The translations under genes and the position numbers were made by a program. Below, one piece after another: positions 20,537 through 42,012 of a DNA stretch of 42,012 nt. The stretch lies in assembly GCA_021808405.1 (NCBI GenBank), contig JAKBBQ010000001.1:7224-49235 (forward strand). Reading direction: 5' to 3'. The notes below the pieces were generated by a model. It was given only the letters and a program-made list of their open reading frames with translations. It ran no database searches and was not told where the DNA came from. The stretch comes from Pseudomonadota bacterium. Its GTDB lineage: Bacteria > Pseudomonadota > Gammaproteobacteria > Burkholderiales > Burkholderiaceae_C. The first letter of the stretch is position 1. The number at the start of each line of letters is the position of its first letter.

Positions 20537-20554
20537 GGTGTCGTCCAGTGGAGG

Positions 20555-24660: not shown

Positions 24661-26076
24661 ATGATGGCCGAGCCCATTCCCGACGTGCTGGTGATCGGCG
24701 GCGGCAATGCCGCGCTGTGCGCCGCGCTGACCGCGCGCGAGCAGGGCGCCTCGGTGCTGCTGCTCGAGGCTTCTCCCCGTGCCTGGCGCGGCGGCAACAC
24801 CCAGCACACCCGCAACCTGCGGTGCATGCACGATGCGCCGCAGGACGTGCTGGTCGATGCGTATCCCGAAGAGGAGTTCTGGCAGGACCTGCGCAAGGTC
24901 ACCTCGGGCCGCACCGACGAGGAACTGGCGCGGCTGGTGATCCGCGCGTCGGCCACCTGCCGTCCCTGGATGCGCAACCATGGCGTGCATTTCCAGCCTT
25001 CGCTGTCGGGAGCGCTGCACACCGCGCGCACCAACGCCTTTTTCATGGGCGGGGGCAAGGCGCTGGTCAACGCCTACTACCGCAGCGCCGAAGGGCTGGG
25101 GGTGGCCATCCGCTACGACACCGCGGTCGATCGCCTGGAACTCGACGAAGGGCGCTTCGTCGCGGCCTTTGCCGGCGAGCAGCGCATCGCCGCGCGCAGT
25201 TGCGTGGTCGCCGCCGGAGGCTTCGAATCCAACCGCGACTGGTTGCGCCAGGCCTGGGGCCGCGACCCGCAAGGCGACTACCCGGCCGAGCAGTTCCTCA
25301 TCCGCGGCACGCGTTTCAACACCGGAGTGCTGTTGCGCCACCTGCTCGACCGCGGCGCCGATCCGGTCGGCGACCCGACCCAGGCGCACATGGTGGCCAT
25401 CGATGCCCGCGCGCCGCTGTACGACGGCGGCATCTGCACGCGCATCGACTGCGTCAGCCTGGGCGTGGTGGTCAATCGCGACGCCGAGCGCTTCTACGAC
25501 GAGGGCGAGGATTTCTGGCCCAAGCGCTATGCCATCTGGGGCCGCCTGGTGGCCCGCCAGCCGGGGCAGATCGCCTATTCGATCATCGATGCCAAGGCGC
25601 TGGGCCGATTCATGCCCCCGGTGTTTCCCGGCACGCGGGCCGACAGCCCTGCGCAACTGGCGCGCGCGCTGGGACTGCCCGAGCAGCGCCTGGTGGCCAC
25701 CTTGCGCGACTACAACCACGCCTGCCGCGGCAGCGGCTTCGACCACACGCGTCTGGACGACTGCCATACCGAAGGCCTGCAGCCGGCGAAATCGCACTGG
25801 GCGCGTGCGCTGGATACGCCGCCCTTCCTGGCCTACCCGTTGCGCCCGGGAGTCACCTTCACCTACCTGGGTTTGCGCACCGACCGCAGCGCCGCAGTGC
25901 GCTTCGGCGGGCGAGCGAGCCCGAACCTGTTCGTGGCCGGGGAAATGATGGCCGGCAATGTGCTCGGGCAGGGTTACACCGCGGGAGTCGGAATGAGCAT
26001 CGGAACCGCCTTCGGGCGCATCGCAGGGCGACAGGCCGCCGAAGCGGCACGACGAGCACTCCATGTCGGGGCTTGA
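24661..26076 (+). CDS. tcuA: FAD-dependent tricarballylate dehydrogenase TcuA-like
   Basis: 'VLVIGGGNAALCAALTAREQGASVLLLEASP' FAD motif, 'RGGNTQHTRNLR', 'AGGFESNRDWL', 'GEMMAGNVLGQGYTAGVGMSIGTAFGRIAG'. Followed by a TcuB-like gene. Confidence 0.88.
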   Translation: MMAEPIPDVLVIGGGNAALCAALTAREQGASVLLLEASPRAWRGGNTQHTRNLRCMHDAPQDVLVDAYPEEEFWQDLRKVTSGRTDEELARLVIRASATCRPWMRNHGVHFQPSLSGALHTARTNAFFMGGGKALVNAYYRSAEGLGVAIRYDTAVDRLELDEGRFVAAFAGEQRIAARSCVVAAGGFESNRDWLRQAWGRDPQGDYPAEQFLIRGTRFNTGVLLRHLLDRGADPVGDPTQAHMVAIDARAPLYDGGICTRIDCVSLGVVVNRDAERFYDEGEDFWPKRYAIWGRLVARQPGQIAYSIIDAKALGRFMPPVFPGTRADSPAQLARALGLPEQRLVATLRDYNHACRGSGFDHTRLDDCHTEGLQPAKSHWARALDTPPFLAYPLRPGVTFTYLGLRTDRSAAVRFGGRASPNLFVAGEMMAGNVLGQGYTAGVGMSIGTAFGRIAGRQAAEAARRALHVGA

Positions 26077-27238
26077 CGACTTGATCGGCCAGGCGGCGGC
26101 CTGCGCCGATCCCGGCGCTTCGGCGCTGCCGCGGCAGGCTGCCGATGCCGAGCAGGAGGCGCTGCGCATCCTGCAGATCTGCAACGCCTGCCGCTACTGC
26201 GAGGGCTATTGCGCGGTGTTCCAGTCGATGACCCGGCGGCTGAGCTTCGACACCGTCGACGTGCGCTACCTGGCGAACCTGTGCCACAACTGCGGTTCCT
26301 GCCTGCATGCCTGCCAGTACGCGCCTCCGCACGAATTCGCGGTCAACGTGCCGCAGACCATGGCGCGGGTGCGCCTGCTCGGCTGGCGACGCCACGCCTG
26401 GCCGCGCGTGCTGGGCCGGCTGTACACCCGCAACGGCCTGGTGCTGGCGTGGCTGCTGGCGGCCGGCAGCGCGCTGTTCCTGGTGCTGGCGCTGCTGCTG
26501 CACGGCACGCTGTGGCACGCGCAGTCCGGCGGCGACTTCTACGCGGTGTTCCCGCACGACCTGATGGCCGGGGTGTTCGGCTTGCTGTCGCTGGGGGTGC
26601 TGCTCGCGCTGGGAGTCGGCTGCGCCGGCTACTGGCGCGAAATCGACCCCGGCGGCCCCGGCGCGGCCAGCCTGGCCGATGCCGTCGGCGCGGTGGCCGG
26701 CCTGCGCTATCTCGGCGGCGGGCACGGCCAGGGCTGCAACAACGAGGACGACCGTTTTTCGCTGGCTCGCCGCAACGCCCACCACGCCTTGTTCTACGGC
26801 TTCGGGCTGTGCCTGCTCGCCACCTGCGTGGCCACGCTGTACCACTACCTGCTGCGGCTTCCGGCTCCCTACCCCTACACCAGCCTGCCGGTGGTGCTGG
26901 GCATGGCGGGCGGAGCGGGCATCGTGGTCGGCGGCACGGCGCTGCTGGCGCTGCGGCTGCGCCGCGACCCGCGGCAGGGCGACCCGGACCAGGCGGCGAT
27001 GGACCTGGGCTTCACCGCCTTGCTGCTGCTGGTGGCGCTCACCGGGCTGGTGCTGGCGGTGCTGCGCGCAAGCGCGGCGATGCCCGCGCTGCTGGCGCTG
27101 CACCTGGGCGCGGTGTTCGCGCTGTTCGCCACCATGCCCTACGGCAGGTTCATGCACGCCCCGCTGCGCGTGATCGCGCTGCTCAAGTGGGCCGTCGAGC
27201 GCAGGCGTGCGGCCGGCGTGGCGGCCGCCGGGGACTGA
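26063..27238 (+). CDS. tcuB: TcuB/CitB-like tricarballylate utilisation membrane Fe-S protein
   Basis: Fe-S motifs 'CNACRYCEGYCAVF' and 'CHNCGSCLHACQYAPPHEF', multiple TM helices, 14-bp overlap with tcuA. Confidence 0.9.
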   Translation: MSGLDDLIGQAAACADPGASALPRQAADAEQEALRILQICNACRYCEGYCAVFQSMTRRLSFDTVDVRYLANLCHNCGSCLHACQYAPPHEFAVNVPQTMARVRLLGWRRHAWPRVLGRLYTRNGLVLAWLLAAGSALFLVLALLLHGTLWHAQSGGDFYAVFPHDLMAGVFGLLSLGVLLALGVGCAGYWREIDPGGPGAASLADAVGAVAGLRYLGGGHGQGCNNEDDRFSLARRNAHHALFYGFGLCLLATCVATLYHYLLRLPAPYPYTSLPVVLGMAGGAGIVVGGTALLALRLRRDPRQGDPDQAAMDLGFTALLLLVALTGLVLAVLRASAAMPALLALHLGAVFALFATMPYGRFMHAPLRVIALLKWAVERRRAAGVAAAGD

Positions 27239-27268: not shown

Positions 27269-28579
27269 TCAGGCTTCGCGCTGCAGGTCGACCGACTTGG
27301 TCTCCGGGCTGGCGAGGATGGCCAGGATGGCCGCCGCGGCATAGCCCATGACCAGCAGCCCGATGTACAGGTAGGCGTGGGCGATGCCGTAGGCGCGCAG
27401 GATCTGCCCGGCCACGATGGGGATCAGCCCGCCGCCGTAGACCTGGGAGATCTGGTAGGAGGCGCTGGCCGCCGAGGCGCGGTAGCGGGTCGGGAAATTC
27501 TCGGTATAGAAGCTCGGCACCGCTCCGTATCCGAAGCCGAACACGAAGCCGAAGCCGATGATCTCGGCCAGCGCGGCCAGCGCGAAGTCGTGGCTGTTGA
27601 TCAGGTAGAAGTAGGGGATGGCGAACACGAAGAACACCACCGCCGAGGTCAGCAGCACGGCGCGCCGGCTGATGCGGTCGGCGAGCAGCGAGCCGATGAT
27701 CATGAACACCAGCATCGAGGCGGCGGCGATCAGCCCGATCTCCTCGGCCTGGCTGCCGGTGAAGCCGACGGTCTTCATGTAGCTGGTGCCGAAGATGAAG
27801 CTGAGGAAGAACGCGCCGCCGAACATCGCGTTGACCAGCGAAGCCCGCAGCAGCCGCCAGGGCATGTCCTTCCATACCTGCAGCGCCGGGACCTGCAGCA
27901 GCGGCTTCTCCGACTTGTACTTCTCGAACACGAAGCTGTCCTCGGTCCGCATGCGGATCACGATGCCGACGATGGCGACCAGGAAGCCGATGAAGAAGAA
28001 GATCCGCCACCCCCAGGCGATGAAGCTCTGCGGGGTCATCAGCGACTTGACGAACAGCACCGAGCCGAATCCCAGCAGCAGCCCGATCGGCACCGCGAAG
28101 CCGACCCACGCACCCCAGAAGGCCCGGTGCCGCGACTTGGCCGCCTGCTCGACCACCCAGGTCGACGCGGTGCCGAATTCGGCGCCGAAGCTGATCCCCT
28201 GGGCCAGCCGGAAGACGATCAGCAGCACCGGCGCCGCCACGCCGATGCTGTCGTAGGAGGGGGTGAGGCCGATCAGCAGGGTGCCCACGCCCATCAGCAG
28301 CAGCGCGTACACCATGGCGTCGCGCCGCCCCTTGCGGTCGGCGATGTTGCCGAACAGGTAGGCGCCGATCGGGCGCACGATGATGCCGATGCCGTAGACG
28401 GCGATCGCCGCCGCCACCGCGGCCAGTGCCGGCAGCTTGAAGAACACCTTGCCCCACACGGTCGCGGCGATGATCCCGGTGACCAGGAAGTCGTACTGCT
28501 CGATGATCGACCCGATGATGCTCGCCAGCGCGACCTTGTAGACCTGTTGCGCCGACGGACTGCCGACTTGGCTTGCCAT
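27269..28579 (-). CDS. MFS metabolite:H+ symporter (MHS family)
   Basis: 'IGSIIEQYDFLVTGIIAATVWGKVFF', 'RPIGAYLFGNIADRKGRRDAMV', 'RLAQGISFGAEFGTASTWVVEQA'. RBS AAGGAG upstream of ATG. Confidence 0.9.
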   Translation of the reverse strand: MASQVGSPSAQQVYKVALASIIGSIIEQYDFLVTGIIAATVWGKVFFKLPALAAVAAAIAVYGIGIIVRPIGAYLFGNIADRKGRRDAMVYALLLMGVGTLLIGLTPSYDSIGVAAPVLLIVFRLAQGISFGAEFGTASTWVVEQAAKSRHRAFWGAWVGFAVPIGLLLGFGSVLFVKSLMTPQSFIAWGWRIFFFIGFLVAIVGIVIRMRTEDSFVFEKYKSEKPLLQVPALQVWKDMPWRLLRASLVNAMFGGAFFLSFIFGTSYMKTVGFTGSQAEEIGLIAAASMLVFMIIGSLLADRISRRAVLLTSAVVFFVFAIPYFYLINSHDFALAALAEIIGFGFVFGFGYGAVPSFYTENFPTRYRASAASASYQISQVYGGGLIPIVAGQILRAYGIAHAYLYIGLLVMGYAAAAILAILASPETKSVDLQREA

Positions 28580-28639: not shown

Positions 28640-29872
28640 TCAGTCGCTGCGGCGTACCGGTGCCCAGGCGAAACGGCTGGCCCCGTCGGGCAGCGTGGCC
28701 GCGCAGCGGGCCAGGGCATCGAGGTCGGCGTCCTGCAGGCCGACCGCCTGCAGCACCTGCCGGGTGTGTTCGCCCAATTCGGGCGGCGGCAGCGTCGGCG
28801 CCGCCTCGGCCCCTGGCGGGCGCGGGAATTCCGGCACCTCGAAGTCCAGGCCGCGGTAGCGGATGTCGCGCAGCTTGCCGGGCTGGCGAGCCTGCGGCGC
28901 CTCGAGCACCCGCTCCAGCGGCAGCACCTCGGTGCAGCCGATCCCGGCCGCCTGCAACCGCGCCGCGGCCTCGTCGAAGGCCAGGCGCCCCAGCGCCTGG
29001 CGCACCAGCGCCTCGCAGCGATCGCGTTGCTTGCGGCGGTTGCGCAGGCTGGCCAGCTCGGGGTCATCGGCCTCGGCGAGCTGCATGGCGCGGCAGAACC
29101 TGTGCCAGTGGGAGTCGGTCAGCATCAGCAGGTACAACCAGCGCTGGTCGCTGCTCTGGTAGGCGCCGTAGCCCGGCATGCTGAACTCGCCATGGGGTTC
29201 GCGCTCGGGCCGCCCCAGCAGCCGGGTCTTGAGCTGCACGCCGACCAGGTCGCGCGAGGCCACGTGCAAGCCGGTCTCGTACAGCCCCACCTCGACCGCG
29301 GACGCCGGCTTGCCGGCAGCCTGCTGCAGCAGGCCGGCCAGCACGCCGATCACCGCGTAGGCGCCTGCGAACTGGTCGTGGTAGCTCGGCCCGAGGCGGC
29401 TCGGGCGGCCGTCGATGCGGTTTTGCTCCATCACCCCGGTGGCCGCTTCGGCGACCGGGTTGGACGCCAGGTCATCCTGCAGCGGTCCGCCCGCATAGCC
29501 GCGGATGTGGCAGTAGATCAGCGAGGGCTTGACGGCCCGGCAATCCGCCTCGGTCAGCCGCAGCTTGCGCGCGGCCCTGGGCGCGAGGTTGTGCACCAGC
29601 GCATCGGCGCTGTGCAGCAGCCGGCAGAACGCCGCGTGGCCCTCGGGCTGCGCCAGGTCCAGGCAAACGCTCTTCTTGCCGTGGCTGTAGGCGATGAACG
29701 TGCCGCTGGGGCCGCCTCGCACCAGCGCGCGGGTGGGGTCCCCGTGCGGCGGCTCGACCTTGATGACTTCGGCCCCAAGCTGGCCGAGCAGGTGCGCGGC
29801 GAAGGGCGCAGCCAGCATGGTGCCGACTTCGATGACGCGGCGGCCGGCGAGCGGGAGGGTCGATGTGTTCAT
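28640..29872 (-). CDS. CaiB/BaiF (class III) CoA-transferase
   Basis: 'LAGRRVIEVGTMLAAPFAAHLLGQLGAEVIKVEPPHGD', catalytic-Asp context 'GPSYHDQFAGAYAVIGVLAGL'. ATG at 29870-29872 preferred over TTG at 29878. Confidence 0.92.
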   Translation of the reverse strand: MNTSTLPLAGRRVIEVGTMLAAPFAAHLLGQLGAEVIKVEPPHGDPTRALVRGGPSGTFIAYSHGKKSVCLDLAQPEGHAAFCRLLHSADALVHNLAPRAARKLRLTEADCRAVKPSLIYCHIRGYAGGPLQDDLASNPVAEAATGVMEQNRIDGRPSRLGPSYHDQFAGAYAVIGVLAGLLQQAAGKPASAVEVGLYETGLHVASRDLVGVQLKTRLLGRPEREPHGEFSMPGYGAYQSSDQRWLYLLMLTDSHWHRFCRAMQLAEADDPELASLRNRRKQRDRCEALVRQALGRLAFDEAAARLQAAGIGCTEVLPLERVLEAPQARQPGKLRDIRYRGLDFEVPEFPRPPGAEAAPTLPPPELGEHTRQVLQAVGLQDADLDALARCAATLPDGASRFAWAPVRRSD

Positions 29873-29881
29873 GGACAATGC

Positions 29882-29910
29882 ATTCTATAAGATAGCGATG
29901 GCAGTGGCAA
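29882..29910 (-). promoter_or_regulatory. Sigma70-like promoter for the minus-strand CoA-transferase: TTGCCA-N17-TAGAAT
   Basis: Reverse complement reads TTGCCA-ctgccatcgctatctta-TAGAAT, with 9 nt between the -10 and the ATG. Confidence 0.6.
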
Positions 29911-30019
29911 TTCGCCGCAGCCGGCAGGCAAAATACCGGTTGGCACGTTGCGTGCCGCCAGGTAGACTGGCAAAAAGAATATACAATGCATTTGTTGTCC
30001 CGTGAACGAGGAACTCCCG

Positions 30020-30859
30020 ATGACCCATCCCTACGCCGAGTGGCTGGGGCGCAGCGAAGAGTGCACCGAACGCCTGGGCGTCGGCGCGGTGCGCGCGCTG
30101 GCCGCGACGCTGGATCTGGAGGCCGCGCCGCAGCCGGGCCAGCCGCTGCCGGCGGGCTGGCACTGGCTGTACTTCAACCCCGTGGTGCGTCGCAGCGGCC
30201 TGGGTGCCGACGGGCACCCCAGGCGCGGGGGTTTCCTGCCGCCCATCGAGTTGCCCAGGCGCATGTGGGCGGGCGGACGCATCCGCTACCTGCAGGATCT
30301 GCCGGTCGACGCGCTGGCGACCCGGCGCAGTGTCATCCGCAGCATCGAACACAAGGCCGGCAAACGCGGCGCGTTGTGCTTTGTCACCGTCGAGCACACC
30401 GTGTCGTGCGGGGCAAGCGACTGCCTGGTCGAGGAGCAGGACCTGGTGTATCGCGAAGCGCCGCCGGCCGCGGCGCCGGCCGCGGCGCCCCAGCCCTTCG
30501 ACGGGGTCGCCCAGTTCGGCGACGACTTCGTCGCCGATACGACCCTGCTGTTCCGCTACTCGGCGCTGACCTTCAACGGGCACCGCATCCACTACGACCA
30601 GGCCTACGCCCAGGCCGAAGAAGGCTATCCCGGACTGGTGGTGCACGGCCCGCTGCTCGCCACCTTGCTGCAGCAACTGGCCCTGCGCCAGGCGGCGGGC
30701 CGCAGGCTGCAGCGCTTTGCCTTCCGGGGTGTCAACCCGGTCTTCGTCGACCGCCGCTTCCGCCTCGAAGGCAGGCAGGACCGGGAGGGCGAACTCGAAC
30801 TGTGGGCGCGCGGCCCCGCGGGAGAACAGTTGATGTCGGCCAGCGCCACGCTGGTCTGA
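30020..30859 (+). CDS. Meh/Ich-like hot-dog hydratase (mesaconyl-C4-CoA/itaconyl-CoA hydratase family)
   Basis: HTD2/FAS1-like dehydratase: 'WHWLYFNPVVRRSGLGADGHPRRGGFLPPIELPRRMWAGGRIRYL' and hot-dog 'LLFRYSALTFNGHRIHYDQAYAQAEEGYPGLVVHGPLLATLLQQLA'. Good RBS GAGGAA upstream of ATG. Confidence 0.82.
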   Translation: MTHPYAEWLGRSEECTERLGVGAVRALAATLDLEAAPQPGQPLPAGWHWLYFNPVVRRSGLGADGHPRRGGFLPPIELPRRMWAGGRIRYLQDLPVDALATRRSVIRSIEHKAGKRGALCFVTVEHTVSCGASDCLVEEQDLVYREAPPAAAPAAAPQPFDGVAQFGDDFVADTTLLFRYSALTFNGHRIHYDQAYAQAEEGYPGLVVHGPLLATLLQQLALRQAAGRRLQRFAFRGVNPVFVDRRFRLEGRQDREGELELWARGPAGEQLMSASATLV

Positions 30860-30956
30860 GCCGGCTTGCCGGCTGGCGTGCGCGGTCGTCGCGGGAGTCT
30901 GCGCAGGCAAAGAATGCATTGGGCATCGGAAACACCGCACTACAGGAGCATCCGAG

Positions 30957-32171
30957 TTGAACCACGTCACCAACCCCTCTGAATCCGGCGTCGGCGACGC
31001 CCCGGCGCAAGGCCTGATCACCGACGAAGCGGTGGCCGCGGCCCGGGCGATGATCGGCCTGCACCTGCGTCCCGAAGGCCCGTACCTGCAGGACGCCACC
31101 GCCGACACCTTGCGCAACTGGTGCAATGGCATCGGCGACCTCAACCCCCTGTACCGCGACCCGGGCTACGGGCCGGGCACGCGCTACGGCACCCAGGTCG
31201 GGCACCCGATGTTCCCCATGGCCTTCGGCTGGCTGGGGCGCACGCGCTGGGGGTTGCCGGGAGTCCACGGCTTCTACGCCGGAAACGACTGGGAACTGTT
31301 CCGCCATGTGCGCCCGGGCGACCGCCTGTCGGCGATCGAGCGGGTCGTCGGGGTGGAGGAAAAGCAGAGCAAGTTCTCCGGCCGACTGGTGCTGCAATAC
31401 GTCGAGGCCTGCTACTACAACCAGCGCGGCGAACTCGTCGCGCGCGCGCTGGGCACCTGCACCCGCCACGAGCGCAAGGCGGCGCGCGAAACCGGCAAGT
31501 ACAAGGAAATCACCCAGCATCAGTACAGCGACGAGGAGCGCGACCGCATCGACCAGATGGTCCTCGACGAGTCGAAGAACATCCGGGGCGCCGACGTGCG
31601 CTACTGGGACGATGTCCAGGTCGGCGAGTCCCTGCCGACCATCGCCCGCGGTCCGCTGTCCCTGATGGACACCATGGGCTTCCTCGTGGGCTGCGGCCGA
31701 GGCCATACCCACGGCGTGCTGCTGCAGGCGGCGGTGCGCCATCCCGGCCACTATTTCCGCAACCCGGAAGCCGGCGGCGGGGTGGAATACACCGGGATCG
31801 GCCACCACCGGGAATCGGTGGCCAAGGAAGTCGGGGTTCCCGGCACCTACGACTACGGCCCGCAGCGCTCGGCCTGGATGTGCAGCCTGGTCACCAACTG
31901 GATGGGCGACGCCGGCTTCCTCAAGCGGGTGCGCACCGAAATGCGCCGCTTCAACATCATGGGTGACACCACCTTCTGCAAGGGCACGGTGGTGCGCAAG
32001 TACGTCAAGGACCGGACCGCCCTGGTGGACATCGAGATCGCCGCCGAGAACCAGCGCGGCGAGGTCACCACGCCCGGCCTGGCCACCGTGGCGCTGCCGT
32101 CGCGCGACATCCGTCTGCCGGCGTTCCTCGACGGCGCAGGCTGCGACCTCGAGCTGCCGGTGGTGCGGTGA
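30957..32171 (+). CDS. Double hot-dog MaoC/FAS1-like acyl dehydratase (~404 aa), TTG start
   Basis: 'LRNWCNGIGDLNPLYRDPGYGPGTRYGTQVGHPMFPMAF' plus 'FNIMGDTTFCKGTVVRKYVKDRTALVDIEIAAENQRGEVTTPGLATVALP'. AGGAG before TTG at 30957. Confidence 0.8.
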   Translation: MNHVTNPSESGVGDAPAQGLITDEAVAAARAMIGLHLRPEGPYLQDATADTLRNWCNGIGDLNPLYRDPGYGPGTRYGTQVGHPMFPMAFGWLGRTRWGLPGVHGFYAGNDWELFRHVRPGDRLSAIERVVGVEEKQSKFSGRLVLQYVEACYYNQRGELVARALGTCTRHERKAARETGKYKEITQHQYSDEERDRIDQMVLDESKNIRGADVRYWDDVQVGESLPTIARGPLSLMDTMGFLVGCGRGHTHGVLLQAAVRHPGHYFRNPEAGGGVEYTGIGHHRESVAKEVGVPGTYDYGPQRSAWMCSLVTNWMGDAGFLKRVRTEMRRFNIMGDTTFCKGTVVRKYVKDRTALVDIEIAAENQRGEVTTPGLATVALPSRDIRLPAFLDGAGCDLELPVVR

Positions 32172-33352
32172 CCGCGAGCGCTGCGAGCCGAGCGGGCCCG
32201 GAGCGGCCGCCCGCACCGCCCGCGGCACTGCCGCTGGCCGGCTGCCGGGTGCTGGAGCGCTCGCGCAGCGTGGCGGCCGCCTACGCCGGGCGCCTGCTGG
32301 CCACGCTGGGAGCGCGCGTGCTGATGCTCGAGCCACCGGGCGGCTCGCCGCTGCGCCGCGCGGCGCCGCGGATCGAGCCCGGCGGCGAGAGCGCGCTGTT
32401 CGCCTACCTGGCCGCCGGCAAGCGCAGCCTGGAGTGCGACACCCTGTCGGACGCCGGCCGCCAGAGGTTGCGCCAGGAGTTGCAGGCCGCCGACCTGCTG
32501 CTCGACGACACCCCGCTGGCCGAGCGCGGCGCCCACGGCTTGCAACCGCAGCAGGTGGCCGAGTGCGCGCCCCGGCTCATCCATGTCAGCGTGCTGCCCT
32601 TCGGCGCCAGCGGCCCGAAGGCCGCCTGGGACGGCGAGGAAGTCAACCTGCTGCACGCGGGCGGCGAAGGCTACCTGCTGCCCAACGGCTACGCCCAGGA
32701 GCTGTTTCCCGAGCGGCCGCCGCTGAAGATCTACGGCCCCTTCGCCGGTTACCAGGGCGGCTGCCTGGCCGCGCTGAGCGCGCTGTCGGCCTGGTGGAAG
32801 GTCGACACCGAAGGCGGGCGCTTTGTCGACGTCTCGGTGCAGGACGCGGTGCTGGCGGTGGGGGCCTTCGCGCTGCAGCGGCTGGGCGACGGTTCGCTCG
32901 AGCACCGCGCCACCCGCAAGTTCCGCTATGGGGGGGTGTTCCAGGCGCGCGACGGCTTTGTCGAAATCCTCACCCTCGAGGACCGCCAGTGGGAAGCCCT
33001 GCTCGACTTGTTGCAGCGTCCCGCGTGGAGCGCCGACCCGGCGCTGCGCGACCCGCTGGAGCGCAGCCGCCGCGGCGACCAGATCAACCGGCATATCCGC
33101 GTATGGATGGCCGGGCAGGACGTCGACCAGGTGGTGCGGCGGGCGCAGCAGCTGGGCGTGCCGGCGGCCCGCTACCGCGCCCCCGAGGAGGTGCTGGCCG
33201 GCGAGCACGAGGCCGCGCGCGCGCTGTTCGCCGACATCGACCTGCCGGGCGCCGGCGCGGCGCGGGCGCTGCGGGCGCCCTACCAGTTCCTGCGCACCCC
33301 GCTGCCGGGTGGCGGCCGGGTGCCGCGGCTCGGTGAAGGAGGGCAGCCATGA
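32168..33352 (+). CDS. CaiB/BaiF (class III) CoA-transferase, catalytic Asp apparently absent
   Basis: 'AAYAGRLLATLGARVLMLEPPGGSPLRR ... ESALFAYLAAGKRSLECDT'. 'PPLKIYGPFAGYQGGCLAALSALSAWW' where the family normally has D. Confidence 0.87.
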   Translation: MTASAASRAGPERPPAPPAALPLAGCRVLERSRSVAAAYAGRLLATLGARVLMLEPPGGSPLRRAAPRIEPGGESALFAYLAAGKRSLECDTLSDAGRQRLRQELQAADLLLDDTPLAERGAHGLQPQQVAECAPRLIHVSVLPFGASGPKAAWDGEEVNLLHAGGEGYLLPNGYAQELFPERPPLKIYGPFAGYQGGCLAALSALSAWWKVDTEGGRFVDVSVQDAVLAVGAFALQRLGDGSLEHRATRKFRYGGVFQARDGFVEILTLEDRQWEALLDLLQRPAWSADPALRDPLERSRRGDQINRHIRVWMAGQDVDQVVRRAQQLGVPAARYRAPEEVLAGEHEAARALFADIDLPGAGAARALRAPYQFLRTPLPGGGRVPRLGEGGQP

Positions 33353-34545
33353 GCCACCCGCCCGCGCTGCAGGGCGTGCGCATCGCCGACTTCACCATCC
33401 ACGCGGCCGGGCCCTTCTGCACCCACCTGCTGTCCCAGCTCGGCGCCCAGTGCATCAAGATCGAGAGCCGCGCCAGGCCCGATGCCTTTCGCAAGCCCCA
33501 CGCGGTCTACGGGCGCATGACCGCGGCGACCTTCGACCAGGTCTCGGCCAACAAGCTCTCGGTGCGCTTGAACCTCAAGCAAGCCGAGGCGGTGGAGCTG
33601 GCGCGCCGCCTGGTGGCGCTGTCGGACCTCGCCGCCGAGAGTTTCCGCCCCGGGGTGATGCAGCGGCTGGGCCTGGGCTTCGAGTCCCTGTGCGAGGTCA
33701 AGCCCGACCTGGTGATGCTGTCGCTGTCGGCGAGCGGGCAGTACGGCCCCGATTCGTACTTCGCAGGCTATGCCCCGCTGTTCGGCGCCTGGGGCGGGCT
33801 GGGCTGGATGAGCGGCTACAGCGACGGCCCTCCGGTGGAAATGCGCCATGTGATGGACCACTCGGCCGGGCTGCACGCCGCACTGGCCGCGGTGGCCGCG
33901 CTGCACCAGCGACGCCGCACCGGACAGCCCCAGCATGTCGACGTGGCCGCGCGCGAGGTCGCCTCGGCGATGATCGGCGATGCGCTGGTGCTGGCTTCGC
34001 TGGGCCAGATCGCCGAGCGCCCCGGCAACGCCGACCCCGGATTCGCGCCCTCGGGGGTCTACGCGACCGCCCAGCCGGACCGCTGGCTGAGCCTGGCGGT
34101 GCGCGACGATGCGCAATGGCAGGCGCTGTCGCGGGTCGTCGGCGAGGGTGCCGAGCGCCCGGAGCTGGCGCGGGCCGACGAGCGGCTGCGCCGGCGCGAA
34201 CAGGTCGACCAACTGGTGGGCGGCTGGCTGCGCCAGCGCGACGCCGATGCCACCGCGCGGGCGCTGCAGCAGCAGGGCGTCTGCGCCCATGTGTCGTGGA
34301 CCATGCGCGACATCGCCGGCGACCCCCACCTGCGCGCGCGCGGCGCGGTGGTCGAGGTCGGTTCGCCCGACATCGAGTCGCGCCCGGTGGTCGGCGCGCC
34401 GGTACGATTGGCCCATACCGAGGGAATGGGCATACGGCGCCTGACGCCGGCCCTGGGCCAGGACGAGGACTATGTATTCGGCGAACTCCTCGGGCTGTCC
34501 GCCGAGCAGCGCCGCGACCTCGAGCAGCGCGAGGTGATCTTTTGA
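33349..34545 (+). CDS. CaiB/BaiF (class III) CoA-transferase, catalytic Asp present
   Basis: 'FTIHAAGPFCTHLLSQLGAQCIKIESRARPD', 'GPPVEMRHVMDHSAGLHAALAAVAAL'. 4-bp overlap with the preceding CoA-transferase. Confidence 0.9.
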   Translation: MSHPPALQGVRIADFTIHAAGPFCTHLLSQLGAQCIKIESRARPDAFRKPHAVYGRMTAATFDQVSANKLSVRLNLKQAEAVELARRLVALSDLAAESFRPGVMQRLGLGFESLCEVKPDLVMLSLSASGQYGPDSYFAGYAPLFGAWGGLGWMSGYSDGPPVEMRHVMDHSAGLHAALAAVAALHQRRRTGQPQHVDVAAREVASAMIGDALVLASLGQIAERPGNADPGFAPSGVYATAQPDRWLSLAVRDDAQWQALSRVVGEGAERPELARADERLRRREQVDQLVGGWLRQRDADATARALQQQGVCAHVSWTMRDIAGDPHLRARGAVVEVGSPDIESRPVVGAPVRLAHTEGMGIRRLTPALGQDEDYVFGELLGLSAEQRRDLEQREVIF

Positions 34546-34597
34546 CATCCATGCAGCGCGTCGCCCCCCGCCGCGCGCGGCGACCCACGGAGGCCCC

Positions 34598-35434
34598 ATG
34601 AGCCATGCGCGCGGCTGCGCGCCCGCGACCGCCGCGCTGGCCGGCGCGCGCAGCCTGTTGTTCGTTCCCGCCGATCGGCCCGAGCGCTTTGCCAAGGCCG
34701 CGGCCAGCGGCGCCGACTGCATCGTCCTCGACCTGGAGGACGCGGTGGCGCCGCAGTCCAAGGCGGCGGCCCGCGCCCACGCCGCGCAGTGGCTGGCCGG
34801 CGGCGGCGCGGCCATCGTGCGGGTCAACGCCGCCGACACGCCGTGGTACGAGGACGACCTGGCGATGCTGCGCGCAGCCCCCGCCGCTGCGCTGATGCTG
34901 CCCAAGGCCGACGCGGCCGCGCTGGAGCGCACCGCGACCGCGCTGCCCGGTCGCGAACTGGCGGCGCTGCTGGAAACCGTCGCCGGCTACTTCGACCTGC
35001 GGCGACTCGCCGCGGCTCCCGGCGTGGCCCGCATCGCCTTCGGCAGCGTGGACTTCGCCGCCGACACCGGGATCGTCGACGAAGGCGAGGCCCTGACTTC
35101 GGTGCGCACGTCGCTGGTGCTGGCCTGCCGCGCGGCGGCGCTGCCGCCGCCGCTGGACGGCGTCAGCCTGGAGCTCGACGACGAGCAGCGCATGCGCGAG
35201 GACGCGCTGCGTTCGCGCCGCCTGGGTTTCGGCGGCAAGCTGTGCATACACCCGCGGCAGGTCGCCGCGGTGCACCAGGCCTTCACCCCCGGTGCGCAGG
35301 AACTGCAGTGGGCGCAACGGGTGGTCGAGGCCTTCGAGGCTGGCGGCGGGGCGGCGATCGCCCTCGACGGGCGCATGGTCGACAAGCCGGTGGTGGACAG
35401 GGCGCGACGCCTGTTGGGGCTGGCGGGCCGCTAA
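34598..35434 (+). CDS. HpcH/HpaI aldolase/CitE family CoA-ester lyase (citramalyl/malyl-CoA lyase-like)
   Basis: 'RSLLFVPADRPERFAKAAASGADCIVLDLEDAVAPQSKAAAR', 'RIAFGSVDFAADTGI', 'GFGGKLCIHPRQVAAVHQAFTP'. Confidence 0.9.
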   Translation: MSHARGCAPATAALAGARSLLFVPADRPERFAKAAASGADCIVLDLEDAVAPQSKAAARAHAAQWLAGGGAAIVRVNAADTPWYEDDLAMLRAAPAAALMLPKADAAALERTATALPGRELAALLETVAGYFDLRRLAAAPGVARIAFGSVDFAADTGIVDEGEALTSVRTSLVLACRAAALPPPLDGVSLELDDEQRMREDALRSRRLGFGGKLCIHPRQVAAVHQAFTPGAQELQWAQRVVEAFEAGGGAAIALDGRMVDKPVVDRARRLLGLAGR

Positions 35435-35539
35435 ACTCGGGCCGGCAAGGGCCTTGCGATGGGCAATGCTCGCCTCCCCCTGGCGCGGCGCGCGGCCGGC
35501 GAGTGCAGGCCGGCGCAGGCGCTCGCCCGCGAATCCCCC

Positions 35540-36175
35540 ATGGACTATCGCACCAAGGAAGAACAGGTCGCCGATTTCCTGCGCGAGCGCATCCTCTCGG
35601 GGGTCTACCCGCGCGGCTCGCGCCTGAAGCAGGCGCAGATCGCCGAGCAATTGCGCCTGAGCATCACCCCGGTGCGCGAGGCGCTCAAGCTGCTCGAGGC
35701 CGAGGGGTATGTCAGCGGCAATTCCTACCGCGGCGCGCGGGTGGTGCCCTTCGACCCCGCGGCCTCGGCCGAGATCCTGCAGTTGCGCCTGCTGCTGGAA
35801 GCGCAGTTGGTGCGCGAGGCGGTCGGCAACGCGACCGCCCGGGACATCGAGGATCTGCGCGCGCTGGCCGAGGAGTTTCGCGACGCCTTCGCCAGCGGCG
35901 ACCGGGCCGGCGCTCGCGGCATCAACTACCGTTTCCACCGCCGGCTGTACGACATCGCCCACCTGCCGCAGACCCTGCATTTCGTGCAGATCCTGTGGGC
36001 CAGGTACCCGTTCGACCTGATCAATGCCGTGCAGGGGCGCGGTGGCGACGCCGTGCGCGAGCACGAGGAGATCCTGCAGGCGCTGACCGCGGGCGACGTG
36101 GCCGCCGCCACGCTGGCGATGCGCAGGCATATCGAATCGGGATGGGCCGTGCTCAGGCAGTCGGCCCCCGGATGA
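35540..36175 (+). CDS. GntR family regulator, FCD (FadR C-terminal) domain
   Basis: 'LRERILSGVYPRGSRLKQAQIAEQLRLSITPVREALKLLEAEGYV' HTH and FCD helices 'YRFHRRLYDIAHLPQTLHFVQILW', 'EHEEILQALTAGDVAAATLAMRRHI'. Confidence 0.93.
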   Translation: MDYRTKEEQVADFLRERILSGVYPRGSRLKQAQIAEQLRLSITPVREALKLLEAEGYVSGNSYRGARVVPFDPAASAEILQLRLLLEAQLVREAVGNATARDIEDLRALAEEFRDAFASGDRAGARGINYRFHRRLYDIAHLPQTLHFVQILWARYPFDLINAVQGRGGDAVREHEEILQALTAGDVAAATLAMRRHIESGWAVLRQSAPG

Positions 36176-36548
36176 GCACGGCTGCCCGCGGTCCTTCCGC
36201 GGCCGGATAGGGATTACCCCGCGCCCGCGACCGCCGGCGCCGCCGCGGCGGAGTCGCCCGTCTTTTTGCTGCGACGCGGCAGAAAAGACCGGATGCAGCA
36301 GAGCAAGCGCGCCTGCTGCGCCGCGCAAACCGGGGATTCGAAAGCGACGATCGGGGCATGCGAAGCATGCCGCGGCAGCGTGGGGTGATCGGAGGTTTCG
36401 ATCAATGCAGGGAAAAACGATTAACAGCAGGCCGGCCAGCCCACGTAGCATCCACATAGGTCAATGAAAGAATGAATGCCGGCGGTTTTCGCGGACAAGC
36501 CGAGATTCGGGCGAACGCCAGCCGGTGACCACAAACGAGGAGACAAGG

Positions 36549-37583
36549 ATGCGCAAGCGAGGCTTCCACTGGCTGCGGCCGGTGTTGCTGGCGGCGGGTG
36601 GCGTGCTCAGCGCCGCGGCGAGCCTGCCGGCACAGGCGGCGACCACCCTGGTGATCAACCAGTTGCTGCCTCCGGGCGACCCCTTCAACCAGCAGGTGCT
36701 GCGTCCGTGGGCGAAGGACGTCGAGCGGGTCACCGACGGCCGGGTGCGCATTTCGCTGCCCAACGCCCCGATGGCCGGCCCGGCGCAGCTGTGGAATGCG
36801 GTGACCGGGGACATTGTCGACGGCGCCTATGTGTTCAACGGCCTGTTGCCGAGGCAACTGCCCCTCGAGCAGGTCGCGGCGCTGCCCTTCGTCTCGGGCA
36901 CCGCCGCGGCGACCTCGGTGGCGTTGTGGAAGACCCACGAGAAATTCTTCGCGCGGGCGCCCGAGTATCGCAGCGTCAAGTTGCTGGCCTTGTTCTCCCT
37001 GCCCCCGGGCGAGGTGTTCAGCATGGCCAAGCCGATCGTCCATCCGGGCGACCTGCGCGGCCGGCGCATCTGGGCGCTGCCCGGGGTGCCGCAGCGCGTG
37101 CTGGTGCACAGCCACGCCGGGGTGATTTCCAGCCCGGCGGTGCAGGTCAGCGAACTCGTCGCCGGCGGTACCGTCGACGCGGTGGCGGGCATAGGCGACT
37201 ACAACGCCCGGGCCTTCAAGATCCTGGGCTACATGAAGTCGGAAACGGTCATCCCCGGCGGGCTGACGGTGCCCAGCTTCTCGCTGATCATCAACCGCGG
37301 CAAATGGGACTCGATCGCCCCGGCCGACCGCAAGGCGATCGAGGCCATCTCCGGGCTGGCCTTCGCCAGGCGCATGACCCTGATCACCCGGATCAACCAG
37401 CAGGCGCGCGAGCAGGCGCGCAAGCAGGGGGTGCGGATCCTGCAGGCTTCGCCGGCGCTGGTGGCCGAACTCAAGGGCTACGCCAAGCCGCTGTTCACCC
37501 AGTGGCTGGCTTCGGCGCGGGCGATGCATGTCGACGGGCCGGCGGCGCTGAAGTATTTCGAGTCGCGGGCGCAGGCGCACTGA
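36549..37583 (+). CDS. TRAP transporter substrate-binding protein (DctP family)
   Basis: Signal peptide 'LLAAGGVLSAAASLPAQA', 'LPPGDPFNQQVLRPWAKDVERVTDGRVRISL', 'DLRGRRIWALPGVPQRVLVHSHAG'. Followed by DctQ and DctM. Confidence 0.9.
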   Translation: MRKRGFHWLRPVLLAAGGVLSAAASLPAQAATTLVINQLLPPGDPFNQQVLRPWAKDVERVTDGRVRISLPNAPMAGPAQLWNAVTGDIVDGAYVFNGLLPRQLPLEQVAALPFVSGTAAATSVALWKTHEKFFARAPEYRSVKLLALFSLPPGEVFSMAKPIVHPGDLRGRRIWALPGVPQRVLVHSHAGVISSPAVQVSELVAGGTVDAVAGIGDYNARAFKILGYMKSETVIPGGLTVPSFSLIINRGKWDSIAPADRKAIEAISGLAFARRMTLITRINQQAREQARKQGVRILQASPALVAELKGYAKPLFTQWLASARAMHVDGPAALKYFESRAQAH

Positions 37584-37596
37584 AGCGGAGGCCGCG

Positions 37597-38127
37597 ATGC
37601 AGACGATGCAGGCCATGCGGGGGCCGGGGGGCGGGCTGCGCGCCCGGACGGTGGGGCTGGCGCGGCTGCTGCTGCGCACCGGGGTCGCGCTGAGCATGCT
37701 GGGGATCATGGGGCTGACCGTGGTCAACGTGTTCATGCGCTACGTGTTCGTGCGGCCGATCAGCGGCAGCGACGAGATGGTGCAGTTCATGCTGGCGCTG
37801 CTGGTGTTCTCGGCGTTTCCGCTGGTGACCGTCGAGCGGCGGCACTTTTCGGTCTCGGTGCTGGCGCGCGGCGCGCGCGGCTGGCTGAAGTTCGCCGGCG
37901 TTGCGCTGGAGCTCGCGGTCAGCGCGCTGGGCTGCGCGATCGTCACCTCGCAGCTGTACAGCCAGGCGGCGATGCTGGGCTCCGAGCAGATGACCACCAT
38001 GGTGCTGCAGCTGCCGCTGGCGCCGCTGAACTATGCGATGAGCGCCTTGTCCTCGCTGGCGTTCGTGGGGATCGTGGTGCTGCTGGCCGAGCATGTGCTG
38101 GGCGGCCGCTCGGGGGATGCGAAATGA
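37597..38127 (+). CDS. TRAP transporter small permease (DctQ family)
   Basis: 4-TM protein 'VVNVFMRYVFVRPISGSDEMVQFMLALLVFSAFPLVTVERRHFSV'. Confidence 0.92.
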   Translation: MQTMQAMRGPGGGLRARTVGLARLLLRTGVALSMLGIMGLTVVNVFMRYVFVRPISGSDEMVQFMLALLVFSAFPLVTVERRHFSVSVLARGARGWLKFAGVALELAVSALGCAIVTSQLYSQAAMLGSEQMTTMVLQLPLAPLNYAMSALSSLAFVGIVVLLAEHVLGGRSGDAK

Positions 38128-39416
38128 TCCTGCCGCTGCTGGGATTCGCGGTCGTGCTGGCGCTGGCCTTCCTGGGCGTGCCGCTGTGCTTTTCGATGCT
38201 CACGGTGGGCGTCGGGCTGTTCAGCCTGGTGCGCGGGCTGCACCCGGCGCTGATGATGGCCGGGCAGACGATTTCCGACCTGGCGATGAACGAGGGGCTG
38301 TCGGTGCTGCCGATGTTCATCCTGATGGGCGCGCTGATCTACAAGTCCGAGCTGGCCGAGGAGCTGTACGACGCGGCCTACGCGCTGGTGGGCCACAAGC
38401 GCGGCGGGCTGGCCTACGCGACGGTGCTGGCCAGCGCCGGCTTCGCGTCGATCTCGGGCAGCTCGATCGCCACCGCGGCGACGATGACCAAGGTGGCGAT
38501 GCCCTCGATGCGCCGGCTGCGCTACGACGACAGCCTGGCCAGCGGCTGCGTGAGCTCGGCCGGCACGCTGGGCGCGCTGGTTCCCCCCAGCGTGCCGCTG
38601 CTGATCTACGGCATCATCACCCAGCAGGACATCGCCAAGCTGTTCGTCGCCGGGGTGCTGCCGGGCATCCTGCTGGGCTCGCTGTTCATGGTGGCCATCT
38701 GGTGGACGGTGCTGCGCAACCCGGCGCTGGGCCCGGCGGGTCCCGCGCTGCCCTGGGGCGACCGGCTGCGGCGCATCGCCAAGGTGTGGCCGATCGTGCT
38801 GCTGTTCGCCATCGTCATGGGCGGGCTGTACAGCGGGATCTTCACCGCCAACGAGGCCGGGGGCATCGGCGCGGCCGGCGCGATGGTGTTCACCGCGCTG
38901 CGGCGCAAGCTGACGTGGTCGGTGCTCATCGAATCGCTGGTGGAGGCCGGGCGCACGACGGCGATGATCTTCGCCGTGGCCTTCGGCGGCATGGTGTTCG
39001 CCAACTTCGTCACCATGTCGGGGCTGACCGGCGGCCTGGTGTCGCTGATCGGCGGGCTGCACCTGCCGGTGACCGGGATCATCCTGGTGATCATGGCCGT
39101 CTACGTCGTGCTGGGCTCGATGATGGAGTCGATCTCCATGATGCTGCTGACGGTGCCGGTGTTCGCCGCGGTACTGGCCCCGCTCGGGGTGAGCATGATC
39201 TGGTTCGGCATTTTCGTGGCGATGATGATCGAGATCGGGATGATCCACCCGCCGATCGGCATGAACGTGTTCATGGTCAAGACCATGATGCCCGAGTTGA
39301 GCATCCGCACCATCTTCGCCGGCACCATCCCGTTCCTGGTGGCCAATTTCACCGCGCTGGCGCTGATCATCCTGTTCCCCGCCATCGCCACCTGGCTGCC
39401 CGCCTTCGCGCGCTGA
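38124..39416 (+). CDS. TRAP transporter large permease (DctM family)
   Basis: 'GVPLCFSMLTVGVGLF', 'GFASISGSSIATAATMTKVAMPSMRRLRYDDSLASGCVSSAGTLGALVPPSVPLLIYGI', 'EIGMIHPPIGMNVFMVK'. 4-bp overlap with dctQ. Confidence 0.95.
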   Translation: MILPLLGFAVVLALAFLGVPLCFSMLTVGVGLFSLVRGLHPALMMAGQTISDLAMNEGLSVLPMFILMGALIYKSELAEELYDAAYALVGHKRGGLAYATVLASAGFASISGSSIATAATMTKVAMPSMRRLRYDDSLASGCVSSAGTLGALVPPSVPLLIYGIITQQDIAKLFVAGVLPGILLGSLFMVAIWWTVLRNPALGPAGPALPWGDRLRRIAKVWPIVLLFAIVMGGLYSGIFTANEAGGIGAAGAMVFTALRRKLTWSVLIESLVEAGRTTAMIFAVAFGGMVFANFVTMSGLTGGLVSLIGGLHLPVTGIILVIMAVYVVLGSMMESISMMLLTVPVFAAVLAPLGVSMIWFGIFVAMMIEIGMIHPPIGMNVFMVKTMMPELSIRTIFAGTIPFLVANFTALALIILFPAIATWLPAFAR

Positions 39417-39650: not shown

Positions 39651-42012
39651 ATGAATGCGCAACTGCAAGGGCTGCAGTGGAGCCAGGCGCTGGCCACCGG
39701 GATACCGGAGGTCGACGAGCAGCACCGCGAGCTGCTGGACATTTTCAACCGGGTCGCGCTGGCCCAGGCGCAGGGCACGGGGTCGCAGCAGGCGGGTCGC
39801 TTGCTCGAATCCCTGGTCGAGTACACCCGCTACCATTTCCGCGAAGAAGCCCGGCTGATGCAGCGCTGGTCGATCGCCGAGTCGCATCGCGCGATGCACC
39901 TGCATGCGCATCGGAGTTTCACCCGTTTCCTGCACCGCGCCCAGGCACTGGCCGAGCGCCAGCCGGCCGACGTGATGGTCGACGTGCTGGCCTTCCTGGC
40001 GCAATGGCTGCTGCACCATATCGCCGGGGTCGACGCGCGCATGGCGCGGGAGGTGGGCGCCGCGCAGGGGGCGGCGCAGCCGCGCGCGCCCGGCACGAGC
40101 GACGATGCGCAACTCGAGCAGCTGGTGGAGGCGGTCAGCCAGTTGACCGACACGCTGGGGCAGCGCACCTTCGACCTGCTCGCGCAGCGCCAGCGGCTGC
40201 TCGACCTGCAGGGCTTGTACCGCGCGCTGCTGCGCTCCGGCGAGGTGCTGATCCAAAGCCGCAGCGAGCAGGAAATGCTCGCCAGCCTGTGCGCCAAGCT
40301 GACCCAGGAAACCCCCTTCCACGTGGCCTGGGTCGGGCGCCCCGGCGCCTCGCAGCTGTTCGAGGTGCTGGCCATCGCCGGCGAGGGGGCCGCGCAGGTG
40401 CGCCAGGTCCTTCCCCGTCTGTCCGACCAGCAGGCGGCGCCGGTCGTGGTCAAGGCGTGGAATTCGCGCCAGCCCGTGGTCTGCAACGACACCCTGGCCG
40501 ACGCGTCGTTGCAGCCGTTTCACGAGGGCTTTCGCAGCAACCAGTGGCTGGCCATCCTGGCGGTGCCCATCGTGCGCGAAGGCAGCGTCTGGGCGGTACT
40601 GACCTTTGTCGCGGCGCGTCGCCAGGTGTTCGACGAGCGCACCGTGGAGGTCTGCGGGCGCATCGCCGCGCTGCTGGGCTTCGGCCTCGACGAGTTCGAT
40701 CTCAAGAGCCGCATCCAGAGCCTGCAGGCGCAGGAGGCGCGCATGGCGCGCACCGACTCCCTGACCCAGCTGCCCAATCGCTTCGCCTTCGAGGAATACC
40801 TGCCGGCGGCGATCCTGCGTTCGCAGCGTCGCGGTCGCGCGCTGGCCGTGGGCATGATCGACCTGGACGACTTCAAGCCGGTCAACGACCGCTTCGGCCA
40901 CGAGGCCGGCGACGAACTGCTGCGCGCGGTGGCCGCGCGGTTGCGCGAGCGGCTGCGCGGAGCCGACTTCCTGGCACGCCTGGGCGGCGACGAGTTCGCC
41001 GTGGTGCTCGAGGACCTCGACGCCGGGCAGGTGCTGCAGCAGCTCGGGGCCGCCTTCAGGCGGCTGCACCAGGCGGTGGATCAGCCCTTCGCGCTGGGCG
41101 GCGAGGCCAGCGCCCGCATCGACATGACCCTGGGCGTGGCCATCTATCCAGCCGACGGAGTCGACGCCGACGCCTTGCTGCGCAAGGCCGACGTCACCAT
41201 GTACCAGGCCAAGCAGCACAAGGACCAGCGACCTCAGTGGTGGCGCATGAGCTCGGCGGCCGCCGAGGAGCCCCACTCCGAGGCGGCTCCCGATCCCTTC
41301 GGGGCCGAGTCGCGGGAACTGCTCGAAGGCCTGTGGGACAGCCTGGACAGCGTGGCCGAGCGCTTCGCGCTGCGCTTTCGCGGACATCTGCAGGCCTCGC
41401 CCGAGATGGCATCGATCCTGGCCAGCCTGGACGAACGACAGTTGCGCGAGCTGGCGTGCACCGAGGCCGCTCAGCTGCGCTTCCTGCTCGACCCCCGCAC
41501 CACCGCGCAGGCCGCGCAGAGCGACTGCGCGCGCCTGGGCACGGTCCACGCGTTGGTCGGCGTCTCGGGCGCCTGGATGACCCAGGCCCTCGGGCTGCTG
41601 CGCGAAGTGCTGCACGAGCACCTGGACGCCGCGGTGGTGACCGCGCGCACCCGCTACCGCACGCTGCGCGCGGTCGAGTCCAGGCTGCAACTGGTGCTGC
41701 AGGCCATGCTGCAGGCCATGCGGGGTGTGGCCGACAGCTACCAGGCCTACCTGACCCAGCCGTTTGCCGAAAAGCTGCTGTCCGGCGACGCCATCCAGGC
41801 CGAGCTGGATTCGCTGGCGGCGCTTCCCGGGGTGCGCGCCGCCGTGCTGTTCCGCCCGGATGCCGGCAGCCGCTTCCTCATCGAACAGGCTTCGGGCGCG
41901 ATCGCCCGCGAGCTGATCGAGGCCTTCGCCGCGCGCGAACTGCATCCCATGGTCGACCCCGGCCACGCCCGCGGCCAGGGGCTGGTGGCGCTGGCCTGCC
42001 TCGGCGAGCTGG
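39651..42012 (+). CDS. Hemerythrin-GAF-GGDEF-globin-like signalling protein (3' end beyond window)
   Basis: Translated by eye from ATG 39651: 'LQWSQALATGIPEVDEQHRELLDIFNRV ... YHFREEARLM ... LLHHIAGVD' hemerythrin, GAF segment, 'LARLGGDEFAVVLEDLD' GGDEF, then 'SVAERFALRFRGHLQASPEMASILASLDERQLRELACTEAAQLRFLLDP...ARLGTVHALVGVSGAWMTQAL' globin-sensor-like helices. No stop before 42012, so it is missing from the ORF track. Confidence 0.88.
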   Translation, partial: MNAQLQGLQWSQALATGIPEVDEQHRELLDIFNRVALAQAQGTGSQQAGRLLESLVEYTRYHFREEARLMQRWSIAESHRAMHLHAHRSFTRFLHRAQALAERQPADVMVDVLAFLAQWLLHHIAGVDARMAREVGAAQGAAQPRAPGTSDDAQLEQLVEAVSQLTDTLGQRTFDLLAQRQRLLDLQGLYRALLRSGEVLIQSRSEQEMLASLCAKLTQETPFHVAWVGRPGASQLFEVLAIAGEGAAQVRQVLPRLSDQQAAPVVVKAWNSRQPVVCNDTLADASLQPFHEGFRSNQWLAILAVPIVREGSVWAVLTFVAARRQVFDERTVEVCGRIAALLGFGLDEFDLKSRIQSLQAQEARMARTDSLTQLPNRFAFEEYLPAAILRSQRRGRALAVGMIDLDDFKPVNDRFGHEAGDELLRAVAARLRERLRGADFLARLGGDEFAVVLEDLDAGQVLQQLGAAFRRLHQAVDQPFALGGEASARIDMTLGVAIYPADGVDADALLRKADVTMYQAKQHKDQRPQWWRMSSAAAEEPHSEAAPDPFGAESRELLEGLWDSLDSVAERFALRFRGHLQASPEMASILASLDERQLRELACTEAAQLRFLLDPRTTAQAAQSDCARLGTVHALVGVSGAWMTQALGLLREVLHEHLDAAVVTARTRYRTLRAVESRLQLVLQAMLQAMRGVADSYQAYLTQPFAEKLLSGDAIQAELDSLAALPGVRAAVLFRPDAGSRFLIEQASGAIARELIEAFAARELHPMVDPGHARGQGLVALACLGEL

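Follow-up and report, generated by a model that had tools for sequence, protein, structure and literature searches.

A conserved, operator-linked gene unit of alpha- and betaproteobacteria with a proposed role in the breakdown of a branched dicarboxylate through CoA thioesters

Gene content of the locus

The sequence analyzed here, referred to as the window, is a 42,012-nucleotide stretch of contig JAKBBQ010000001.1 (positions 7,224 to 49,235) from a Pseudomonadota bacterium of the Burkholderiaceae_C, and the subject of this work is a core group of genes within it. The core encodes a class III CoA-transferase (CT1), a hydratase resembling itaconyl-CoA hydratase Ich (MehS), a double hot-dog hydratase/dehydratase (MaoC404), two further class III CoA-transferase proteins (CT2 and CT3), a CitE-type lyase and a GntR regulator. 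These genes, together with the symporter gene next to CT1, are arranged as follows:

27269-28579, minus strand: MHS-family symporter (TIGR00883)
28640-29878, minus strand: CT1, class III CoA-transferase with catalytic Asp (PF02515)
30002-30859, plus strand: MehS, itaconyl-CoA/mesaconyl-C4-CoA hydratase-like double hot-dog hydratase (8khg match)
30957-32171, plus strand: MaoC404, double hot-dog hydratase/dehydratase of 404 amino acids (PF13452)
32168-33352, plus strand: CT2, class III CoA-transferase subunit without catalytic Asp (PF02515)
33349-34545, plus strand: CT3, class III CoA-transferase, predicted catalytic subunit (PF02515)
34598-35434, plus strand: CitE, (S)-citramalyl-CoA-lyase-like acyl-CoA lyase (8khl/9nzb match)
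35537-36175, plus strand: GntR/FCD regulator (PF00392 and PF07729)

The MaoC404 and CT2 genes, as well as the CT2 and CT3 genes, overlap by 4 bases, and the symporter gene shares the strand of CT1, following it downstream after a gap of 61 bp. Every gene family named in a preliminary description of this sequence was recovered in place by Pfam/NCBIfam profile searches, with PF02515 E-values of 4.5e-60 to 7e-89 for CT1, CT2 and CT3. The range given there for a catabolic island (28640-39416) does hold the named core genes and a TRAP transporter, but tcuAB and the gene for the MHS symporter are found a short way upstream of it.

The core is a conserved unit

Scanning species genomes yielded 130 relatives, from which 80 loci were retained, all in alpha- or betaproteobacteria. 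In nearly all of these loci CT2, CT3, MehS, CitE and GntR surround MaoC404, and CT1 is present where the flank is long enough. The transporters and upstream enzymes differ between the 80 loci while the core stays nearly whole. The conserved co-occurrence that the preliminary description had suggested looking for is thus strongly borne out, and recurrence in 80 loci of many genera, far beyond chance, makes the core a real conserved unit. Its most conserved protein is MaoC404, which is 74-89% identical in other genera; the GntR regulator is 74-83% identical among other betaproteobacterial loci. Close orthologs of MaoC404 were found in 4 further genomes of a 201-genome sample of the family, and a phylum-wide spread of genomes yielded none except the window's own, indicating that the trait is sporadic. 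Copies of the unit are plasmid-borne in Cupriavidus, Agrobacterium, Salipiger and Qingshengfaniella, and its hosts include many soil and marine bacteria that are not related to one another.

Several accessory genes recur near the core. An isochorismatase-fold protein is encoded at 72 of 84 loci, a HIBADH-type enzyme at 65 and an SDR protein at 43, and most loci also have a lactonase (SMP-30 or AiiA-like) and an ABC transporter of the LIV type. A PDB search with the LivK substrate-binding protein gave no informative match. Neither the window nor a sister genome of the same genus, G159, has these accessory genes beside the core, where TRAP and MHS genes stand instead. Elsewhere in the window's genome only distant homologs of the isochorismatase-fold, HIBADH and SDR proteins were found; an SMP-30 homolog (56%) lies beside a LacI-type gene, with no operator at that site. 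Assignment of the isochorismatase-fold neighbor as an amide hydrolase (RutB/biuret-like by hidden Markov model) was weakened by the presence of Val at the catalytic Cys position in the consensus. The gene, found in loci L022-L116 (e.g. L023:13818-14423), is labeled "cysteine hydrolase" in plasmid records, and the Cys position is not Cys in a 70-sequence consensus. A catechol 1,2-dioxygenase-type gene (L022:16806-17789) lies near the core in genome G199.

A common operator delimits the regulon

The intergenic region between CT1 and MehS holds two copies of a palindromic operator, ATACAATGCATTGTAT. A weight matrix trained on the loci of other organisms, with the window and its genus excluded, scored the following sites in the window:

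29871-29890, no strand: operator site 1, CT1 promoter (score 27.8)
29979-29998, no strand: operator site 2, MehS promoter (score 28.6)
30907-30926, no strand: operator site 3, upstream of MaoC404 (score 19.9)

The next-best position in the window scores 2.8, and the best scores in shuffled windows have a mean of 7.4 and a maximum of 22.0. As the operator core was first spotted in the window and G159, only its occurrences elsewhere count as an independent test. Cluster loci yielded 214 sites, spread over 72 of the 77, as compared to 2 sites in control loci totaling 461 kb, and those in cluster loci are mostly upstream of MaoC404, LivK, CT1 and MehS. The exact operator core occurs twice in the 3.7-Mb genome, at sites 1 and 2. 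Judged from these sequences, CT1 (with the MHS symporter), MehS and the MaoC404-CT2-CT3-CitE-GntR series are very probably co-regulated through the common operator, and GntR is the presumed binder of the palindrome. The symporter is placed under the CT1 operator by its position, the CT1-MHS order is kept in G159, and the MHS protein is the probable importer of the regulon. The operator would also offer a simple means of marking out the regulon in any genome and of identifying its inducer.

The remaining neighbors of the core are:

24649-27238, plus strand: tcuA-tcuB, tricarballylate dehydrogenase module (NF006130, TIGR02484)
36525-37583, plus strand: TRAP DctP (PF03480)
37597-38127, plus strand: TRAP DctQ (PF04290)
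38124-39416, plus strand: TRAP DctM (PF06808)

The preliminary description had joined these genes and the core into one composite island. If that were so, tcuAB and TRAP would be functional parts of the pathway and its substrate a tricarballylate or aconitate derivative, a prospect we rate as highly improbable. The weight-matrix scan of the window detected no operator above chance at the tcuAB or TRAP genes, leaving their membership in the regulon unsupported; the operator joins the core and symporter genes only, and across the sampled loci tcuAB and TRAP are irregular neighbors. It is true that tcuAB adjoins the core in the window and G159 and is found near it in L053 and L062, both Alcaligenaceae loci, where the link is perhaps a coincidence and perhaps a functional tie. 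The other cluster loci, however, have no nearby tcuAB beyond a 36% TcuA-like match in L108. TcuA and TcuB are ordinary members of their families (753 bits vs a cut-off of 369 for NF006130, and 404 vs 246.6 for TIGR02484), and the symporter beside CT1 falls below the TcuC cut-off (182 vs 445 bits). In L053 and L062 (~18600-21000), from Pusillimonas and another Alcaligenaceae strain, a LysR gene accompanies tcuAB near the core.

A TRAP transporter of the window's type is kept only within the genus. The best PDB match of its DctP is 4p56 (E 5e-41), which we take to be a mandelate-bound protein. TRAP may import the substrate, though with no operator at its genes. Downstream of TRAP, a hemerythrin-GAF-GGDEF protein with a weak C-terminal protoglobin match (39654-42011) runs off the window, and a PAS-GGDEF-EAL protein is encoded on the minus strand at 17620-19713.

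CT2 and CT3 form a probable heteromeric CoA-transferase

The catalytic Asp is invariant in CT1 (Asp168, 26 of 26 orthologs) and in CT3 (Asp170, 82 of 82 orthologs), whereas all 61 CT2 orthologs have Gly at this position. The absence of the residue from CT2 and its presence in CT3 point toward a heteromer. The best PDB match of CT3 is the benzylsuccinate CoA-transferase subunit BbsF (9fn0_B, E 1.6e-51), to which CT2 is weakly similar. From these sequences CT2 and CT3 probably form a heteromeric CoA-transferase with CT3 as its sole catalytic subunit, CT1 being a separate enzyme.

All three proteins fail the Mct model TIGR04253 (cut-off 725), with scores of 40 (CT1), 42 (CT2) and 73 bits (CT3). 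In seven loci (six Bradyrhizobium and one Roseomonas) a sucCD-like ligase is found instead of CT1, and one locus has both; the ligase pair is preceded by the operator in Bradyrhizobium/Roseomonas. Succinyl-CoA synthetase activates itaconate where the itaconate CoA-transferase Ict is missing (PMC12290011), and the replacement of CT1 by a ligase of this kind suggests that CT1 acts on a free acid. By this analogy CT1 probably activates the free unsaturated acid, a role like that of Ict in a protein that is not an Ict ortholog. A role of CT1 as an intramolecular Mct is weakened both by its model score and by the ligase replacement. Alternatively, the sucCD-like ligase could regenerate succinyl-CoA.

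The operator also precedes a gene for the succinyl-CoA:acetate CoA-transferase ScpC (830 bits vs a cut-off of 500) on a Salipiger plasmid and in a Sulfitobacter locus. Two operator copies stand in front of these ScpC genes (L082:18590-20101 and L197:6011-7552). Its presence before ScpC in these two roseobacter loci and before the sucCD-like pair supports succinyl-CoA as the donor and acetyl-CoA as a product, with ScpC expected to turn product acetyl-CoA into succinyl-CoA donor.

MehS and CitE are sisters of the itaconate enzymes

The best phmmer match of MehS is the Pseudomonas aeruginosa itaconyl-CoA hydratase (8khg/8huc, E 1e-66), and that of CitE is the acyl-CoA lyase 8khl/9nzb (E ~4e-56). 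In a tree of 103 hydratases, canonical Ich and the MehS proteins of the cluster are split by one branch with support of 99/92. The active-site motif NGHRIHYD is conserved in MehS, and four positions separate it from canonical Ich, two of which change to Gly (L52G and A243G). The CitE proteins of the unit, one Novosphingobium sequence excepted, form one clade (94/82) beside canonical Ccl, and CitE scores below the cut-off of the RipC_Ccl model (NF038242; 172 vs 375 bits). The assignment of the hydratase as Meh/Ich-like and the lyase as Ccl-like in the preliminary description thus agrees with matches and trees alike, and by sequence the two proteins form sister clades to their counterparts in the known itaconate/methylsuccinate cluster, Ich and Ccl.

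This kinship raises the question of whether the unit is merely another P. aeruginosa-type itaconate/methylsuccinate cluster with spare CoA-transferases. An Ich homolog is found in half of the sampled family genomes. The window's genome has no second Ich, which would fit such a view, as would the Ich-like MehS with its active site kept and the Ccl-like CitE. However, genomes G019 and G199 hold, besides the unit, a separate Ich-acyl-CoA dehydrogenase-Ict cluster of the type described for Cupriavidus necator (PMC12290011), its members being identified by gene order and sequence rather than by family search. Among the region's genes, Pfam/NCBIfam searches found no Mcd acyl-CoA dehydrogenase or MmgE/PrpD isomerase, nor is there an Ict ortholog, as the CoA-transferase that neighbors Ich in canonical loci has only 27-32% identity with CT1 and CT3 (about 30% for CT1). 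MaoC404 and CT2/CT3, the most constant parts of the unit, are superfluous for itaconate, and MehS separates from canonical Ich with the support given above. As the breakdown of itaconate does not call for MaoC404 or a second CoA-transferase, and the canonical cluster stands apart in two genomes, plain itaconate or methylsuccinate is the less likely substrate and an ordinary itaconate cluster quite unlikely. While the broad CoA-ester chemistry put forward in the preliminary description appears right, its proposal of itaconate or methylsuccinate itself loses ground.

The changes to Gly in MehS would widen its pocket, raising a further alternative in which a succinate or malate with an aryl or long-alkyl substituent is imported by an aromatic-acid-type LIV ABC or TRAP transporter. 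The nearest PDB relatives of CT3 (BbsF) and DctP (4p56) and the LIV-type ABC genes at most loci would suit such a substrate. We nevertheless consider it unlikely, for no aromatic ring-processing genes accompany the core, sphingomonad MehS retains Leu at position 52, and the TRAP genes have no operator.

MaoC404 shares a predicted fold but no detectable sequence kinship with Mch

A single-sequence search with MaoC404 gave no PDB match at E 0.01, and a profile search returned only generic hot-dog proteins, Chloroflexus Mch (4e3e) not being among the matches. Its predicted structure (pLDDT 75) is a double hot-dog. In a Foldseek search with this model, generic MaoC dehydratases score highest, followed by Mch 4e3e (E 7e-15), the mesaconyl-CoA hydratase MeaC 8hgn (E 7e-14) and P. 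aeruginosa Ich. As modeled, MaoC404 shares the Mch-type double hot-dog fold, and its sequence shows no detectable relationship with that of Mch. A second MaoC family of 380-400 amino acids, 32-39% identical to MaoC404, occurs in another operon in loci L025-L035 (genomes G019, G070, G151, G106, G023, G175, G086, G149, G140 and G137), several of which have the order AMP-ligase, MaoC, class III CoA-transferase and TctC-type substrate-binding protein.

The likeness in fold brings to mind a heterotrophic mesaconyl-CoA branch, with SmtAB-like CT2/CT3, Mch-like MaoC404, Mct-like CT1, Meh and a lyase acting on 3-methylmalate or beta-methylmalyl-CoA. The gene roles would correspond one to one and CT2/CT3 are paired, but the score of CT1 against the Mct model and the lack of detectable sequence relation between MaoC404 and Mch speak against it. 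The presence of a sucCD-like ligase instead of CT1 at seven loci fits an intramolecular transferase poorly, and the lactonase and HIBADH of relatives are left unexplained. We regard this branch as very unlikely.

Proposed pathway

The reading that we favor, with moderate confidence, is that the unit is one GntR-controlled catabolic regulon, driven by succinyl-CoA, that converts a hydroxylated branched dicarboxylate to acetyl-CoA and a 2-oxoacid. The second transferase and the Mch-fold enzyme suggest a starting acid that bears a hydroxyl group and undergoes dehydration ahead of the MehS and CitE steps. After import, CT2/CT3 would make its CoA thioester with succinyl-CoA as the donor, and MaoC404 would dehydrate this to an unsaturated CoA thioester of the itaconyl or mesaconyl type. 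CoA would then shift to the other carboxyl by way of the free acid, with re-activation by CT1 or, in some lineages, by the sucCD-like ligase. Hydration by MehS would give a citramalyl-type CoA, which CitE would cleave, releasing acetyl-CoA together with pyruvate or a closely related 2-oxoacid.

Three points weigh against this pathway as drawn. The accessory enzymes have no orthologs in the window's genome except the SMP-30 homolog, so the starting substrate may vary by lineage; at least one Novosphingobium-type locus has a different CitE; and in MaoC404 an acidic residue lies six positions ahead of the invariant His283 in place of the canonical D-x4-H spacing, which leaves the reaction and direction of the enzyme uncertain.

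As to the substrate, one tentative version, doubtful in our view, is that itamalate (2-hydroxymethylsuccinate) or its lactone paraconate feeds the itaconate route as a mobile alpha-/betaproteobacterial trait. Here the acid would be made ready by the lactonase and HIBADH-type enzyme that most relatives have, CT2/CT3 and MaoC404, the latter a new double hot-dog dehydratase, would yield itaconyl-CoA, and CT1 or the sucCD-like ligase, MehS and CitE would complete the breakdown. Such a substrate would account for the lactonase and HIBADH of relatives. Other candidates may be 3-methylmalate, itatartarate or an acid with a bulkier substituent. A search of open-access literature, with subscription papers outside its scope, gave nothing pertinent on this gene combination or on the catabolism of itamalate/paraconate or 3-methylmalate. 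If the favored pathway is true, a widespread and partly plasmid-borne pathway has so far gone under the generic labels "MaoC dehydratase / CoA transferase / CoA ester lyase", and it would comprise a new point of entry to the citramalyl-CoA route, a new family of CoA-ester dehydratases and a heteromeric CoA-transferase. It would also point toward a soil and marine acid eaten by many bacteria and so far without assignment.

Comparison with known systems

The preliminary description had distinguished the gene set from the ict-ich-ccl cluster of Pseudomonas as well as from the bicycle of Chloroflexus, and this stands. With the itaconate-methylsuccinate cluster of P. aeruginosa and C. necator (ict, ich, ccl, mcd and msi; PMC12290011, PMC9875883) the unit has in common a hydratase and lyase of sister clades and a class III CoA-transferase. 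It differs in adding MaoC404, CT2/CT3 and its own GntR operator and in lacking Mcd and Msi; the CoA-transferases are not orthologous, and both clusters occur together in two genomes. The PA0878-0886 region of P. aeruginosa presumably includes a TRAP transporter, and TRAP also adjoins the core here.

The 3-hydroxypropionate bicycle of Chloroflexus (smtAB, mch, mct, meh and mcl) has the same roles, with two class III CoA-transferase functions, an Mch-fold hydratase, a Meh-type hydratase and a lyase. In contrast, CT1 lies outside the Mct family, MaoC404 has no detectable sequence kinship to Mch, and the unit has no carboxylation genes. The benzylsuccinate CoA-transferase BbsEF (9fn0) likewise consists of unequal class III subunits encoded by adjacent genes, with BbsF nearest to CT3, but the unit lacks acyl-CoA dehydrogenase and beta-oxidation genes and the similarity of CT2 to BbsF is weak. 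The Yersinia-type RipABC itaconate cluster shares the CitE-type lyase step and differs in the lyase itself, as seen in the RipC model score of CitE. The two itaconate pathway variants are themselves reported to share no homology or only a distant one (PMC12290011). Set beside these systems, the unit would work like an itaconate route to which a front end has been added, and it stands outside the known clusters.

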